Shown one piece after another: positions 3,968 through 51,187 of a stretch of 64,000 nt of DNA; within the stretch, counting starts at the first letter, position 1; every line of letters starts with the position of its first letter. The stretch covers positions 2,294,001 to 2,358,000 of the forward strand of contig NZ_CP069535.1 in assembly GCF_016889805.1 (NCBI RefSeq), given 5' to 3'. Made by a program: the position numbers and the translations under genes. A model generated the notes under the pieces. That model was given only the letters and a program-made list of their open reading frames with translations. It did no database searches and was not told the origin of the DNA. The stretch is from Rhodanobacter sp. FDAARGOS 1247. GTDB lineage: Bacteria; Pseudomonadota; Gammaproteobacteria; Xanthomonadales; Rhodanobacteraceae.

Positions 3968-3994
3968 TGTCGATTCCGCCCACCTTCGTTCGTC
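3968..3994 (+). promoter_or_regulatory. Putative ECF42-type promoter for GST
   Basis: TGTCGA, 17 bases, CGTC. The last element ends 32 bases before the GST start. The same spaced pair precedes four other genes in this window and resembles promoters recognised by ECF41/42-type sigma factors. The remainder of the 3734-4026 gap shows only GC-rich sequence with repeated CCGGTGTCG segments near 3760-3780. Confidence 0.65.
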
Positions 3995-4026: not shown

Positions 4027-4686
4027 ATGACCCTCAAGCTCTACGCCCACCCGTTCTCGTCCTACTGCCAGAAGGTGCTGATCGCGCTGTACGAGAACGA
4101 CCTCGCCTTCGAGTTGCGCCTGCTCACCCCGGACGGTGCCGAAACCGACCACGAATTCACCGCCTGGTGGCCGCTGCGGCGCATGCCGTTGCTGCGCGAC
4201 GGCGAACGCAACGTGGTCGAATCCAGCATCATCATCGAGTACCTTGGCCAGCAGCATCCCGGTCCGCAGCGGCTGATTCCCGAGGATGCCGAAGCCGCGC
4301 TGGAAGCGCGTTTTCTCGACCGGTTCTTCGACAACTACGTGCATACGCCGCTGCAGAAGATGGTGTTCGACCAGTTGCGCCCGGCCACCGAGCGCGATGC
4401 CCGCGGCGTGGAGGAAGCCCGCCGCATGCTCGACACCGCCTATGCCTGGCTCGATCACAAGCTTGCCGACAGGCACTGGGCCACCGGCGGCGGTTTCAGC
4501 CTCGCCGACTGCGCCGCCGCGCCCGCCCTGTTCTACGCCGACTGGGCGCACCCGATCCCCGCCGCCTTCGCAAACCTCGTCGCGTATCGGCAGCGCCTGC
4601 TGGCGCGTCCCTCGTTCGCCCGCGCAGTGGACGAGGCGCGCCCCTACCGCTCGTACTTCCCGCTCGGCGCACCTGACCGCGATTGA
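4027..4686 (+). CDS. Glutathione S-transferase family protein
   Basis: 219 residues. N-terminal thioredoxin-like domain with the FSSYCQK active-site region after the first strand, a cis-proline loop (RRMPLL) and the VESSIIIEYL glutathione-gamma-glutamyl contact motif; C-terminal all-helical domain containing FSLADCAAAPALFYADW. Expected to conjugate glutathione to electrophiles or to act as a glutathione lyase in the cytoplasm. It stands alone on its strand, preceded by an ECF42-type promoter motif, suggesting induction with the DGPF genes. Confidence 0.85.
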   Translation: MTLKLYAHPFSSYCQKVLIALYENDLAFELRLLTPDGAETDHEFTAWWPLRRMPLLRDGERNVVESSIIIEYLGQQHPGPQRLIPEDAEAALEARFLDRFFDNYVHTPLQKMVFDQLRPATERDARGVEEARRMLDTAYAWLDHKLADRHWATGGGFSLADCAAAPALFYADWAHPIPAAFANLVAYRQRLLARPSFARAVDEARPYRSYFPLGAPDRD

Positions 4687-13859: not shown

Positions 13860-14222
13860 TCACCGCTGCGGTGAGCAGTCCTCGTCGACCTGGCGCACTT
13901 CGCACTCGATTTCCCAGTCGCTGCCGTGCACGTCGAGGAAGCGTCGGGTCAGCGCCAGCGCCTGCTCCATCGAATCGGCCTGCAGCAGCGCGTAGCCGCC
14001 GATCACTTCCTTGGTTTCGGCGAACGGGCCGTCCGTGGTTGTCTGCCGACCCTGCGACAGGCGCACGCGCGCGCCTTCCGCCGTGGGCCGCAGGCCTGCC
14101 GTGTCCAGCAGGCTGCCGGCCGCGGTCATTTCCGCCATCAGCTTGCCCATGTCGGCCATCAGCTGCTCGCTGGGCCGCTGCCCGCTGTTCTCGTTGATCC
14201 GGATCATCGAAAGGAATCGCAT
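13860..14222 (-). CDS. DGPF-domain (YCII-related) protein
   Basis: 120 residues with the ferredoxin-like YCII fold and the signature TDGPFAETKEVIGGYALLQ. Such proteins commonly accompany ECF42-type sigma factors; their biochemical role is undefined. Two ATGs lie six bases apart: AGGAG abuts the first and is six bases from the second, so the second (MRFLSMIR) is chosen. A TGTCGA-N17-CGTC promoter lies upstream, although the sigma factor gene is 33 kb away in this window. Confidence 0.82.
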   Translation of the reverse strand: MRFLSMIRINENSGQRPSEQLMADMGKLMAEMTAAGSLLDTAGLRPTAEGARVRLSQGRQTTTDGPFAETKEVIGGYALLQADSMEQALALTRRFLDVHGSDWEIECEVRQVDEDCSPQR

Positions 14223-14277
14223 CGTCATCTCCTGTGGGAAGCTGCGGTCGCGCGGCGGACCGCGCTCCTGCCATGGC

Positions 14278-14304
14278 GACGAACGAAGCGCGACCGGATC
14301 GACA
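14278..14304 (-). promoter_or_regulatory. Putative ECF42-type promoter for DGPF gene
   Basis: On the minus strand TGTCGA, exactly 17 bases, then CGTC; the last element ends 55 bases before the DGPF start. It is identical in both elements and in spacing to the sites before the two GST genes and the DGPF gene at 50773-51117. Confidence 0.65.
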
Positions 14305-33634: not shown

Positions 33635-33661
33635 TGTCGAATTTTCGACACGCCATTCGTC
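33635..33661 (+). promoter_or_regulatory. Putative ECF42-type promoter for GST, embedded in a hairpin
   Basis: TGTCGA, 17 bases, CGTC; the last element ends 40 bases before the GST start. The TGTCGA element is also the left arm of a perfect 10-bp inverted repeat (GCGTGTCGAA-TT-TTCGACACGC, 33632-33653), which may terminate the lipase operon. Confidence 0.65.
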
Positions 33662-33701: not shown

Positions 33702-34325
33702 ATGAAGTTGTACTGGTCGGATGTGCTGGCGCCGCGCAAGGCCTGCGCCGTGGCGAAATACCTGCAATCGCCGCTGGACTACGTCTACCTCGACCTCGGC
33801 CGGGGCGAGCACAAGACGGCGGAATATCTCGCGCTCAACCCGAACGGCAAGGTGCCGACCCTGGTCGACGGCTCGCGCGTGCTGTGGGAGGCCGACGCGA
33901 TCATCTGCCACCTCGCGGCCCGCAGCGATTCGGAACTGTGGCCCCAGGACGCCCGCCAGATCGACGTGATCCGCTGGTTCAGCTGGAGCGCCCAGCACTT
34001 CACCGCGCAGGCCGGCGCACTGTATTTCGAGTACATCATCAAGCCGCGTTTCGGCATCGGCGAGGCCGATCCAGTCGAAACGGGGCGCGCCACCGACGCG
34101 TGGCGCCAGCACGCCGCCGTGCTGGACGGCCATCTGCGCGATCGCCGCTGGCTGGTCGGCGACACGCTGACCCTGGCCGACTTCGCCGTGGCCGTCGCCC
34201 TGCCCCACGCCGACGACGCGCACATCCCGCTGCAGGACTTCCCCGCGATCCGGCGCTGGCACGACCGCATGAACGAACTCGACGCCTGGCGTGAACCCTT
34301 CCCCGAGCCCGCCCTGAGCGAATGA
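33702..34325 (+). CDS. Glutathione S-transferase family protein
   Basis: 207 residues. N-terminal thioredoxin-like domain (MKLYWSDVLAPRKACAVAKYL; LNPNGKVPTLVDG with the cis-proline; LWEADAIICHLA with the glutamyl contact) and a helical C-terminal domain (TLADFAVAVALPHAD). The N-terminal active-site Ser/Cys is not obvious. Together with the GST at 4027-4686 it carries an ECF42-type promoter, so both are probably induced together with the DGPF genes. Confidence 0.82.
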   Translation: MKLYWSDVLAPRKACAVAKYLQSPLDYVYLDLGRGEHKTAEYLALNPNGKVPTLVDGSRVLWEADAIICHLAARSDSELWPQDARQIDVIRWFSWSAQHFTAQAGALYFEYIIKPRFGIGEADPVETGRATDAWRQHAAVLDGHLRDRRWLVGDTLTLADFAVAVALPHADDAHIPLQDFPAIRRWHDRMNELDAWREPFPEPALSE

Positions 34326-47195: not shown

Positions 47196-47222
47196 TGTCC
47201 AAATCGCTGAAGCTCGCGCGTC
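47196..47222 (+). promoter_or_regulatory. Putative autoregulatory ECF42-type promoter
   Basis: TGTCCA, 17 bases, CGTC, ending 52 bases before the DGPF gene that precedes the sigma factor. It differs by one base from the TGTCGA of the other four sites. An ECF sigma factor commonly recognises its own operon promoter. Confidence 0.6.
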
Positions 47223-47274
47223 ATGGGAATGGCGGCGCACACTGCCCGCCGATCACTCACCGTGGAGAACTCCG

Positions 47275-47622
47275 ATGCAATATCTGTTGATGCTGTATGG
47301 AAACGAGGGCAGCTGGTCGCAGATGACCCCGGCCGAACAGGCTCAGGGCGTCGCCGCCTATGCGGCCTACACGCAGGCGCTGAAGACCGGCGGCGCGCTG
47401 GTCGGCTCGAACCGCCTGCAGAACAGCACGACCGCCACCACCGTGCACGTCGCCGACGGCAAGTCGCAGGTGCTGGATGGACCGTACGTGGATTCCAAGG
47501 AACAACTGGCCGGCTATTACCTGATCGACGTGCCGGACCTGGATGCGGCGCTGGCCTGGGCCGCACGCTGCCCCGGGGCCAGCCACGGCACGATTGAAGT
47601 GCGGCCGGTCTGGAGCATGTAG
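47275..47622 (+). CDS. DGPF-domain (YCII-related) protein, sigma-factor partner
   Basis: 115 residues: MQYLLMLYGNEGSW begins the fold and VLDGPYVDSKEQLAGYYLIDV carries the DGPF/DGPY signature. GGAGA precedes the ATG. Its stop is immediately followed by the sigma factor start, the typical DGPF-ECF42 operon order. It may be a regulator or target of the sigma factor; no catalytic activity is established for the family. Confidence 0.85.
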   Translation: MQYLLMLYGNEGSWSQMTPAEQAQGVAAYAAYTQALKTGGALVGSNRLQNSTTATTVHVADGKSQVLDGPYVDSKEQLAGYYLIDVPDLDAALAWAARCPGASHGTIEVRPVWSM

Positions 47623-48873
47623 TTGGAAGCCGCGGCACAGGCACGCCGTACTGCAGACGCCGTAGCGCGTCGCAGCTACGGCAAGCTGATCGCGTTCCTG
47701 GCCGCCGCCATGCGCGACGTGGCGGCGGCCGAGGATGCGTTGTCCGAGGCATTCGCCTCCGCGCTGGCGGACTGGCCGCGCAACGGCTGTCCCGCCAACC
47801 CGGAGGCATGGTTGCTGACCGTGGCCCGGCGCAAGGGCATCGATGGCATTCGCCGCCGTCGCAGTGGCGAAGCGGCCGCGGCACAGCTGCAGCTTCTGGC
47901 GGAGATCGACGACACCGCAGCGGCGATCGCGGATGACCAGGCCATCCCCGACCAGCGCCTCGCGCTGCTGTTCGCCTGCGCCCATCCGGCGATCGACGCG
48001 GGCATCCGCGCACCGCTGATGTTGCAGGCCGTGCTGGGGCTGGATGCGAAAACGATCGCCTCGGCGTTTCTCGCATCACCCGAGGCCATGGGCAAACGCC
48101 TGGGACGGGCGAAACAGAAGATCCGCGAAGCGGGCATTCCGTTCGCCATCCCCTCGCGCGACGAGCTGGCCGGACGGCTGGACGGCGTGCTGGATGCGAT
48201 CTACGCCGCCTACGCGGAAGGCTGGAGCGATCCCGGCGGCACCGACCTGATCCGTCGCGACCTCACGGCCGAAGCGCTGTTCCTCGCCGACCTGGTGGCC
48301 CGGCTGCTGCCGCAGGAACCCGAGGCGCTGGGTCTGCTGGCCTGCCTGCTGCATGCGCAGGCCAGGTGTGGTGCCCGCCGCAACGCGGCGGGCGACTACG
48401 TGCCGCTGGCCGAGCAGGATGTCGCGCTGTGGGACAACGCGATGATCGACGAGGCGGAAGCCCTGCTGCTGCGCGCCAGCACGCTGGGCCGCATCGGTCG
48501 GCATCAACTCGAAGCCGCGCTGCAGTCCGCGCATGTCGAGCGTCGCCGCAGCGGGCGCACCGACTGGACGCCCGAGGTGCAGATCTACGATGCGCTGCTT
48601 GCGCTCTCCGGCTCACCGGTGGTCGCGCTCAACCGCGCGCTGGCCATCGCCGAACTGCAAGATCCGCCCGCTGCGCTGGATATCCTGGAAACACTCGCCG
48701 CCGACGGGCGGCTGCTGCAATACCAGCCTTACTGGGCCGCACGCGCGGCCTTGCTGGCCCGAACCCATGCCTATCCCGAAGCCCGCGACGCGTTCGACAT
48801 GGCAATCGGCCTGGCCAGCGACCCCGCCGTCCGCCGTTTCCTGCAGGAACGCCAGGCCGCGCTGCCGCGCTGA
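47623..48873 (+). CDS. ECF42-type RNA polymerase sigma factor with C-terminal TPR-like extension
   Basis: 416 residues from a TTG start immediately after the DGPF stop; GGAG lies seven bases upstream, inside the DGPF gene. The N-terminal part has sigma region 2 (VAAAEDALSEAFASALADWP; NPEAWLLTVARRKGIDGIRRR) and region 4 (LDAKTIASAFLASPEAMGKRLGRAKQKI). About 230 residues follow, with helical repeats (VALNRALAIAELQDPPAALDILETL) as in ECF42 proteins, where the extension substitutes for a classical anti-sigma factor. It probably directs transcription from the TGTCGA-N17-CGTC sites. Confidence 0.85.
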   Translation: MEAAAQARRTADAVARRSYGKLIAFLAAAMRDVAAAEDALSEAFASALADWPRNGCPANPEAWLLTVARRKGIDGIRRRRSGEAAAAQLQLLAEIDDTAAAIADDQAIPDQRLALLFACAHPAIDAGIRAPLMLQAVLGLDAKTIASAFLASPEAMGKRLGRAKQKIREAGIPFAIPSRDELAGRLDGVLDAIYAAYAEGWSDPGGTDLIRRDLTAEALFLADLVARLLPQEPEALGLLACLLHAQARCGARRNAAGDYVPLAEQDVALWDNAMIDEAEALLLRASTLGRIGRHQLEAALQSAHVERRRSGRTDWTPEVQIYDALLALSGSPVVALNRALAIAELQDPPAALDILETLAADGRLLQYQPYWAARAALLARTHAYPEARDAFDMAIGLASDPAVRRFLQERQAALPR

Positions 48874-50159: not shown

Positions 50160-50588
50160 TCAGCGCTTCTTCCCGCCGAAACCGGGAATGGCCGTGGCCT
50201 GTTGCATCCACGCGGCGACCTGGCGTTCGTCGAGTTCCTCCACCGACGCGAGGTCCACGCCGCGCGAGTCCTTGCCCATCCCGATCGGCTTGACCGGCGG
50301 CACGGGCTGCAGCGAGGTGCCGCGGCCGAAGGTGAGCTTGACGTGGCCGATGAAACCGCCGCACGAGAAACACCAGCCATCGCCGACGCCATACCACGCC
50401 ATGCCCCACTTCACCGAGCGCTTCAAGTCCGGCAAGGTCCTGGCCGCCAGGGCATCGACGGATTCGGCGATGCCGCGTTGCGGTTGCGGCAGGCTGCGGA
50501 TATAGGCAAAAACCGGCTCGTCCCCGTCCCTGGCCTTCGCCGAGCTCGCGCGGCCAGTCATGGCTGCCAGCAGCTTCGTGGCGACCAC
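50160..50588 (-). CDS. DUF1801 domain protein with upstream frameshift
   Basis: The DUF1801 domain (FAYIRSLPQPQRGIAESVDALAARTLPDLK; VKWGMAWYGVGDGWCFSCGG) is intact in about 142 residues from a GTG. The likely native start is an ATG at 50707 with GGGAGG upstream, whose frame encodes an Ala/Lys linker (DKVAAKAKASRVARAG). That frame is offset by one base from the domain. Adding one base in the C-run at 50627-50630 restores a continuous linker (AKAGEPGRRAAEPVVATKLL). Deletion, sequencing error or ribosomal slippage could explain it. It follows DGPF-3 and is probably its operon partner. Confidence 0.7.
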   Translation of the reverse strand: MVATKLLAAMTGRASSAKARDGDEPVFAYIRSLPQPQRGIAESVDALAARTLPDLKRSVKWGMAWYGVGDGWCFSCGGFIGHVKLTFGRGTSLQPVPPVKPIGMGKDSRGVDLASVEELDERQVAAWMQQATAIPGFGGKKR

Positions 50589-50772: not shown

Positions 50773-51117
50773 CTACGACTTGAACCGGCGAACTTCCTGG
50801 GGCCAGCCGCAGGCTTCGGCCAGCTTGCCGGCCCATCGCCTCGCCGCTGCCTCGTCGGCCACGTCGATCGCGGCGAATCCGCCCAGAAACTGCGGATTCC
50901 GCACGTAGGGCCCGTCGCTGAATCTCAACGTGCCGCCGGTCGCATCCGCGGTGAAGGCCGCGTCCGGATCCTCCTCCAGGCCGCCGGCCAACAGGTAGAC
51001 TCCGGCCGCCTTCATTTCCTCCACCACTGCCCTGGCCAGCGGACCGCGCGTCGCGAACCACGCTTCGGAATGCTCGCCGACCCACGGCTGGTTGAAGTAG
51101 ATCAGGTATTCGCTCAT
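50773..51117 (-). CDS. DGPF-domain (YCII-related) protein
   Basis: 114 residues: MSEYLIYFNQPWVGEH at the N-terminus and TLRFSDGPYVRNPQFLGGFAAIDV with the DGPF/DGPY signature. GGAAGG lies upstream of the ATG. An ECF42-type promoter precedes it, and the DUF1801 gene follows 65 bases downstream in the same direction. Confidence 0.82.
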   Translation of the reverse strand: MSEYLIYFNQPWVGEHSEAWFATRGPLARAVVEEMKAAGVYLLAGGLEEDPDAAFTADATGGTLRFSDGPYVRNPQFLGGFAAIDVADEAAARRWAGKLAEACGWPQEVRRFKS

Positions 51118-51160: not shown

Positions 51161-51187
51161 GACGAACAGGAGCTGGCCATTTCGACA
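51161..51187 (-). promoter_or_regulatory. Putative ECF42-type promoter for DGPF/DUF1801 operon
   Basis: On the minus strand TGTCGA, exactly 17 bases, CGTC, ending 43 bases before the DGPF start. It lies in the short space between this gene and the LysR gene upstream. Confidence 0.65.

Follow-up and report, generated by a model that had tools for sequence, protein, structure and literature searches.

Two promoter classes for ECF42-type sigma factors in a Rhodanobacter genome, seemingly marked by one recognition-helix residue

Which sigma factor reads the five similar promoter-like sites that lie within a single 64-kb stretch of Rhodanobacter DNA (the window, meaning the whole stretch analysed)? 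One site precedes a gene pair that encodes a sigma factor, here called sigma A; the others precede genes of the GST and DGPF (YCII) families. A sequence-only reading had placed all five under sigma A. The features concerned are as follows.

47623..48873, + strand: sigma factor A, 416 aa, TTG start; Pfam PF04542 and PF20239
47275..47622, + strand: DGPF-2, YCII family, 115 aa; PF03795, E 7e-21
47196..47222, + strand: class A site TGTCCA-N17-CGTC, from which sigma A is predicted to drive its own operon; PWM scores 34.4 (A) and 15.8 (B)
3968..3994, + strand: predicted promoter of class B ahead of GST-1; PWM scores 31.9 (B) and 11.5 (A)
4027..4686, + strand: GST-1, 219 aa; PF13417, E 2e-16
14278..14304, - strand: predicted promoter of class B ahead of DGPF-1; PWM scores 25.4 (B) and 14.4 (A)
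13860..14228, - strand: DGPF-1, YCII family, 122 aa; PF03795, E 1e-12
33635..33661, + strand: predicted promoter of class B ahead of GST-2; PWM scores 20.2 (B) and 6.1 (A)
33702..34325, + strand: GST-2, 207 aa; PF13410, E 4e-11
51161..51187, - strand: predicted promoter of class B ahead of DGPF-3; PWM scores 25.8 (B) and 12.7 (A)
50773..51117, - strand: DGPF-3, YCII family, 114 aa; PF03795, E 1e-5
50160..50588, - strand: DUF1801 gene, downstream of DGPF-3; PF08818, E 5e-12

Five promoter sites of two classes

TGTCSA-N17-CGTC matches the window at exactly five places (3968+, 14278-, 33635+, 47196+ and 51161-), compared with a mean of 0.49 and a maximum of 3 in 100 dinucleotide-preserving shuffles. 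Together with reversed-pattern controls across the family, the shuffles rule out a chance origin, which the sequence-only reading had also judged very unlikely. The distances from motif end to start codon that it gave, 32–55 bases, were the same on re-measurement: 32 for GST-1, 40 for GST-2, 52 for DGPF-2, 43 for DGPF-3, and 49 or 55 for DGPF-1 (ATG 14228 or ATG 14222, respectively). Pfam likewise confirms the gene families behind the sites (GST, YCII, DUF1801 and sigma).

The window sites fall into two classes: four are TGTCGA-N15-TTCGTC (class B), and the site at 47196 is TGTCCA...GCGCGTC (class A). PWMs built on own promoters (69 of class A, 30 of class B), with this genome left out of both and R. 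spathiphylli also left out of A, set the five sites apart by 11 to 20 bits. In the whole genome, TGTCSA-N17-CGTC has 19 matches versus 10 for the reversed pattern. The sharper TGTCGA-N15-TTCGTC, which excludes 47196, has 10 matches versus 0 reversed, and four of the ten lie in the window. Seven of the ten are packed into 206 kb (G000:C1:2139212-2345187) of the 3.92-Mb genome, a tightness reached by 0 of 20000 random sets; the class B regulon is physically clustered. Elsewhere, G000:C1:3477065 and 3778098 carry the same 27 bases, a single mismatch away from class B and possibly a repeated element.

We consider it probable that two parallel ECF42-type circuits, A and B, share the window, with each sigma factor reading its own class and residue 158 discriminating between them. 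In circuit A, DGPF-2 and sigma A (47275-48873) would be transcribed from their own TGTCC[AG]-N17-CGTC promoter, with little or no further regulon. In circuit B, a second factor encoded outside the window, sigma B, would drive the TGTCGA-N15-TTCGTC promoters. Four of these lie in the window, before GST-1, DGPF-1, GST-2 and DGPF-3/DUF1801 (putatively co-transcribed), and at least eight elsewhere, before genes for an RND adaptor, AHSA1, DUF1428, PhnB followed by GST, two VOC proteins, YceI and one uncharacterised protein. Position 158 of the sigma factor (sigma A numbering) would read base 5 of the -35 element, Lys with C and Gln with G. The TPR extension may sense a signal through contacts with other proteins, a mechanism that PMC8999054 puts forward for ECF42.

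Sigma A, its predicted own promoter and residue 158

Sigma A contains sigma-70 region 2, DUF6596 and a TPR-like C-terminus. Region 2 (PF04542) scores above its cut-off and NCBIfam TIGR02937 below (21.8 of 42.9). In the AlphaFold model (mean pLDDT 85.6), the region 4 recognition helix (residues 153-170), in which Lys158 sits, is present. The C-terminal half is all-helical and TPR-like, judging from the model and from TPR matches in structure comparison. The VIA-align comparison returned rows mostly covering residues 111-416 with no sigma chain among them, which is no argument against a sigma fold. A long C-terminal TPR extension (DUF6596) and an adjoining DGPF/YCII gene are ECF42 traits, and both are present, in agreement with the type first proposed for this factor. 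The stop codon of DGPF-2 adjoins the sigma A start, the two genes probably form an operon, and the order DGPF-then-sigma is kept in most sigma A relatives examined. Sigma A relatives among the best 80 of 168 matches come from Dyella, Paraburkholderia, Caballeronia, Acidobacteria and other groups as well as from Rhodanobacter itself, where R. spathiphylli, at 96%, is the nearest named one found. A further ECF42 trait is that no anti-sigma gene adjoins the sigma gene; the ORFs near sigma A, named by eye, are TonB receptor-like and phosphatase-like.

TGTCGA is a -35 form of ECF42 promoters, and the resemblance of the window motif to them that the sequence-only reading had suggested proved real. 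Sigma A departs from the ECF42 promoter trait (-35 TGTCG[A/G]) at base 5, where its own promoter has TGTCC[AG], and for this reason we call it an ECF42 variant. The ECF42 label is a predicted one, resting on domain, neighbour and promoter features rather than on an ECF classification tool.

In a survey of clade-A DGPF upstream regions that comprised 107 loci (12 minus-strand loci unread), TGTCC[AG]-N17-CGTC was seen ahead of the DGPF start in records from Rhodanobacter, Dyella, Paraburkholderia, Caballeronia and Acidobacteria. At two clade-A loci that carry several sites (L197 and L218), the first is TGTCGA at the usual distance. The site at 47196 is predicted to be sigma A's own promoter and to belong to class A. 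A wider sigma A regulon was sought with TGTCCRN13CGNRCGTC, which gave 37 matches versus 18 in the control for the 19 Lys-type-A genomes and 99 versus 104 for the other 98. The excess of about one match per Lys-type-A genome is as expected for the own promoter alone, and the three other matches in this genome all lie inside long open frames.

Own promoters were collected with a blind rule, which accepts any TGTCNN-N17-CG[AT]C, provided that a DGPF ORF lies upstream of the sigma gene and its ATG follows the site by 15-80 bases. Applied to 208 distinct sigma proteins, it gave a site for 144 and none for 64; the 114 distinct clade-A proteins divide into 87 with and 27 without a site. Among the clade-A sites, the 71 Lys types have TGTCC (70) or TGTCT (1) and the 16 Gln types have TGTCG. 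Residue 158 and base 5 are associated across all 144 ECF42 proteins: Lys occurs with C in 70 cases and T in one, Gln with G in 71 and A in one, and Ala with G in one. In a set of 103 clade-A loci, which includes near-copies and 11 sites from a more permissive search that were assigned by eye, the residue being visible at the time, residue 158 has the top mutual information with base 5 and is the sole position of 416 to equal the base's full entropy.

An association of this kind could mostly reflect shared ancestry, with another residue setting specificity, and residues 222 and 143 are indeed strongly associated with base 5 as well. The number of independent switches behind the association is also small. 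In a 71-row tree built without the helix columns, residue 158 changes four times; for base 5 the count is three if strictly found sites alone are used and four when by-eye sites are included, in which case 3 of 3 supported switches match. An 82-row blind tree leaves just two Lys/Gln changes, one of them supported. Because these amount to 2-4 independent switches, with which a sign test cannot reach 0.05, we only infer a causal role for residue 158. Against shared ancestry, the association is complete at residue 158 alone, and this residue lies in the recognition helix at a place that corresponds, in the alignment to solved ECF sigma factors, to Ser of VRSRIF. Locus L190 is also matched, with Gln and G in a helix that is otherwise of Lys type (site read by eye, TTGTC at -10). 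We regard the ancestry explanation as unlikely, if still worth weighing, and one recognition-helix residue seems to mark which promoter each sigma factor reads.

Plasmid loci, of which 14 were fetched from 132 matching records and read with no gene-start rule, carry both helix and site in 12 cases. These pair Lys with C once (Caballeronia), Gln with G nine times, Ala with G once (Rhodococcus, with a spacer one longer) and Ser with A once (Streptomyces). L420 has neither helix nor site, and L425 has no site. In L421 and L423, both from cyanobacterial plasmids, the DGPF and sigma genes are divergently oriented, the interval between the two genes holds paired TGTCGA-N17-CGAC sites, and the Gln-G sites of these loci were found on the divergent strand only. 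Four plasmids (from Shinella, Sinorhizobium, Rhizobium and Ruegeria) combine Glu157-Gln158 with TGTCGG, and one from Roseibium combines Arg157 with TGTCGC. Glu157-Gln158 goes with TGTCGG at nine of nine loci (L350, L362, L364, L369, L375, L414, L415, L417 and L418). Residue 157 predicts base 6 partly, since Ser occurs 19 times with A and 19 times with G. The Sinorhizobium plasmid site is one base off the motif that PMC6180224 gives, with 5'-RACE, for SMc01151; RpoE10 had no effect on this gene in that work.

A broader scheme, for and against which we lean equally, would make these pairings a code. Residue 158 would set base 5 (Lys-C, Gln/Ala-G and perhaps Ser-A), residue 157 would partly set base 6 (Glu-G and perhaps Arg-C), and duplication followed by a Gln-to-Lys change would have insulated the TGTCC circuit from an ancestral TGTCGA detoxification regulon.

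Sigma B and the class B motif across the family

A search with DUF6596 finds two such sigma genes in the genome, sigma A in the window and sigma B at G000:C1:1413184-1414398, 0.93 Mb away; the two proteins are 36% identical. Sigma B scores above the TIGR02937 cut-off (50.7), and the promoter of its clade, TGTCGA...CGTC, fits the ECF42 -35/-10 trait. The DGPF gene and promoter that precede sigma B in most relatives are missing here, which counts against the two-circuit model. The best match in this genome to the sigma B-linked DGPF protein of G039 is just 41-44% identical, and for this reason the partner gene seems to have been lost. Sigma B is preceded by pilY1-like and pilin-like genes (L030:4374-6447, named by eye). 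The GGDEF-like gene downstream (also named by eye) is common to G039, G018 and the G100-locus G093.

Across 117 family genomes, the class B motif has 533 matches versus 16 for the reversed control and is found in 92 genomes; it is thus far from equally frequent at random, here (10 versus 0) or in the family. The motif co-occurs with ECF42. The 22 genomes counted as without ECF42 (no match, or none better than 5.8e-8) are at background, with 4 matches versus 4, compared with 314 versus 9 in the 66 genomes that have ECF42 without clade A and 215 versus 3 in the 29 that have clade A. Three same-genus genomes without sigma A carry 7 (G018), 6 (G116) and 1 (G052) copies. The exact motif lies upstream of 28 of 35 fetched clade-B sigma genes, a non-neutral set in which 11 loci were picked for a listed motif nearby and some others for high motif counts. 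It is present at six of seven same-genus clade-B loci fetched regardless of motif and at none of three whose genomes lack exact copies altogether. The first search for sigma B promoters presupposed TGTCGA, and a looser blind search was therefore made afterwards.

At least 12 class B promoters are predicted in this genome: the ten exact sites, 1576029- before a VOC gene (one base off class B) and 2138404+ before AHSA1 (ending in TTCGTT), the near-match list being a minimum. Their predicted products are YCII/DGPF, GST, VOC/PhnB, DUF1428, AHSA1 and YceI proteins and an efflux adaptor, and a GST gene lies about 120 bases after PhnB (2144323). One class B site (G000:C1:2160174-2160200, L017) precedes a 273-aa protein without Pfam match; in G116 the motif is followed by a relative of this protein at 50% identity. 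The statement that every DGPF and GST gene carries the motif is true inside the window and fails genome-wide, where exact sites lie just upstream of 3 of 7 YCII and 2 of 16 GST_N_3 matches, with one more GST gene in a possible operon behind a site.

The predicted regulon is conserved. Sixty sites in nine genomes (G042, G024, G083, G059, G044, G072, G013, G057 and G113) are mostly located before the same few families. The first genes behind them are YCII 12, GST_N_3 9, 3-dmu-9 (PhnB) 8, YceI 5, DUF1428 6, AHSA1 6, Glyoxalase 6, HlyD_D23 2 and RibD_C 2, counted for putative genes by a scoring rule in a scan that covered motif-linked genes only, with possible overlap between counts. Among the 30 same-genus sites examined, of 53 in all, relatives of the DUF1428 (5 sites), PhnB (3) and RND adaptor (1) proteins that are 78-84% identical lie behind the motif, and close relatives of GST-2, DGPF-1 and DGPF-3 were absent from these 30. 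GST-1 relatives (66-68% identical) lie behind it at three same-genus sites (G093, G105 and G116). The earlier idea of a detoxification regulon stands as regards a conserved set in which DGPF, GST and similar small proteins abound; detoxification itself is a putative role.

The regulons might also overlap, with sigma B the main reader of TGTCGA and sigma A reading some of these sites in part. Both classes share TGTC and CGTC, and A and B co-occur: 29 of 29 clade-A genomes have a second ECF42, which is not B-like only in G088, where the class B motif has 0 matches. Because every clade-A genome has this second factor, there is room for cross-reading of class B by sigma A. Class B copies average 7.4 with clade A and 4.8 without (p 0.0015, confounded by kinship), and the higher count could come from kinship or from some cross-reading. 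The 144 own promoters include no Lys/G or Gln/C pairing, which argues against overlap, and we rate it as quite unlikely.

We reject a single five-site regulon in which sigma A tolerates C or G at base 5, as the sequence-only reading had it. The five sites do share one window and the TGTCNA and CGTC elements, and clade-A genomes do have more class B copies. However, class B is common without sigma A, including in two of the three same-genus genomes that lack it; the PWMs separate 47196 from the other four, which match the class of clade-B sigma operons; and own promoters of Lys types have C or T, never G. Reading of all five sites by sigma A is accordingly improbable. That the TGTCGA sites belong to an ECF group other than ECF42 is more improbable still: related -35 elements exist (the S. 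meliloti ECF41 promoter has TGTCACA in PMC6180224), and seven ECF42-bearing genomes of the 117 lack the exact motif (G025, G033, G043, G050, G060, G088 and G108), but the motif is at background in the 22 ECF42-less genomes and precedes clade-B sigma operons.

Comparison with known ECF42 systems

ECF42 factors are widespread, and their targets and signals are poorly known. Under the two-circuit reading, the conserved set of promoters would be a concrete regulon to assay, promoter prediction from one residue would make the insulation of paralogues testable, and helix type could be used to predict ECF42 targets from genome sequence. Work by Todor et al. (2020) on rewiring of ECF specificity reportedly found that region 4 residues covary with -35 bases, a likeness of general principle. 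Studies of Streptomyces venezuelae ECF42 factors are said to describe a TGTCGA/CGTC motif and a DGPF link, and to our knowledge a Lys158/TGTCC class is not known from them. The literature that we searched, with primary ECF42 papers outside it, contained no Lys-type ECF42 with TGTCC, no two promoter classes per genome and no GST regulon of this size. Within this limited access, the two coexisting classes and the Lys158/TGTCC class look new.

PMC6180224, PMC8999054 and PMC8103513 already describe ECF42 factors with a YCII link, a TPR extension and promoters of the form TGTCG...CGTC. The S. venezuelae factors (Sven_0747 and others) resemble ours in having a TPR extension, as described in PMC8999054. 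Pseudomonas putida ECF-10 is also an ECF42 factor with a similar gene context, likened here by description (PMC6180224 and PMC8999054). Another close counterpart is RpoE10, the Sinorhizobium meliloti ECF42 (PMC6180224). As here, a YCII gene precedes the sigma gene, the protein has a TPR extension, the promoters combine TGTCGG (the -35 element in Table 1) with CGTC, and the targets include glyoxalase-like and hydrophobic-ligand domains. On RpoE10 overexpression six genes went up and no autoactivation was seen; the predicted promoters here number at least 12 and include those of GST genes. The present genome differs further from the RpoE10 system of PMC6180224 in having two sigma factors and two -35 classes.
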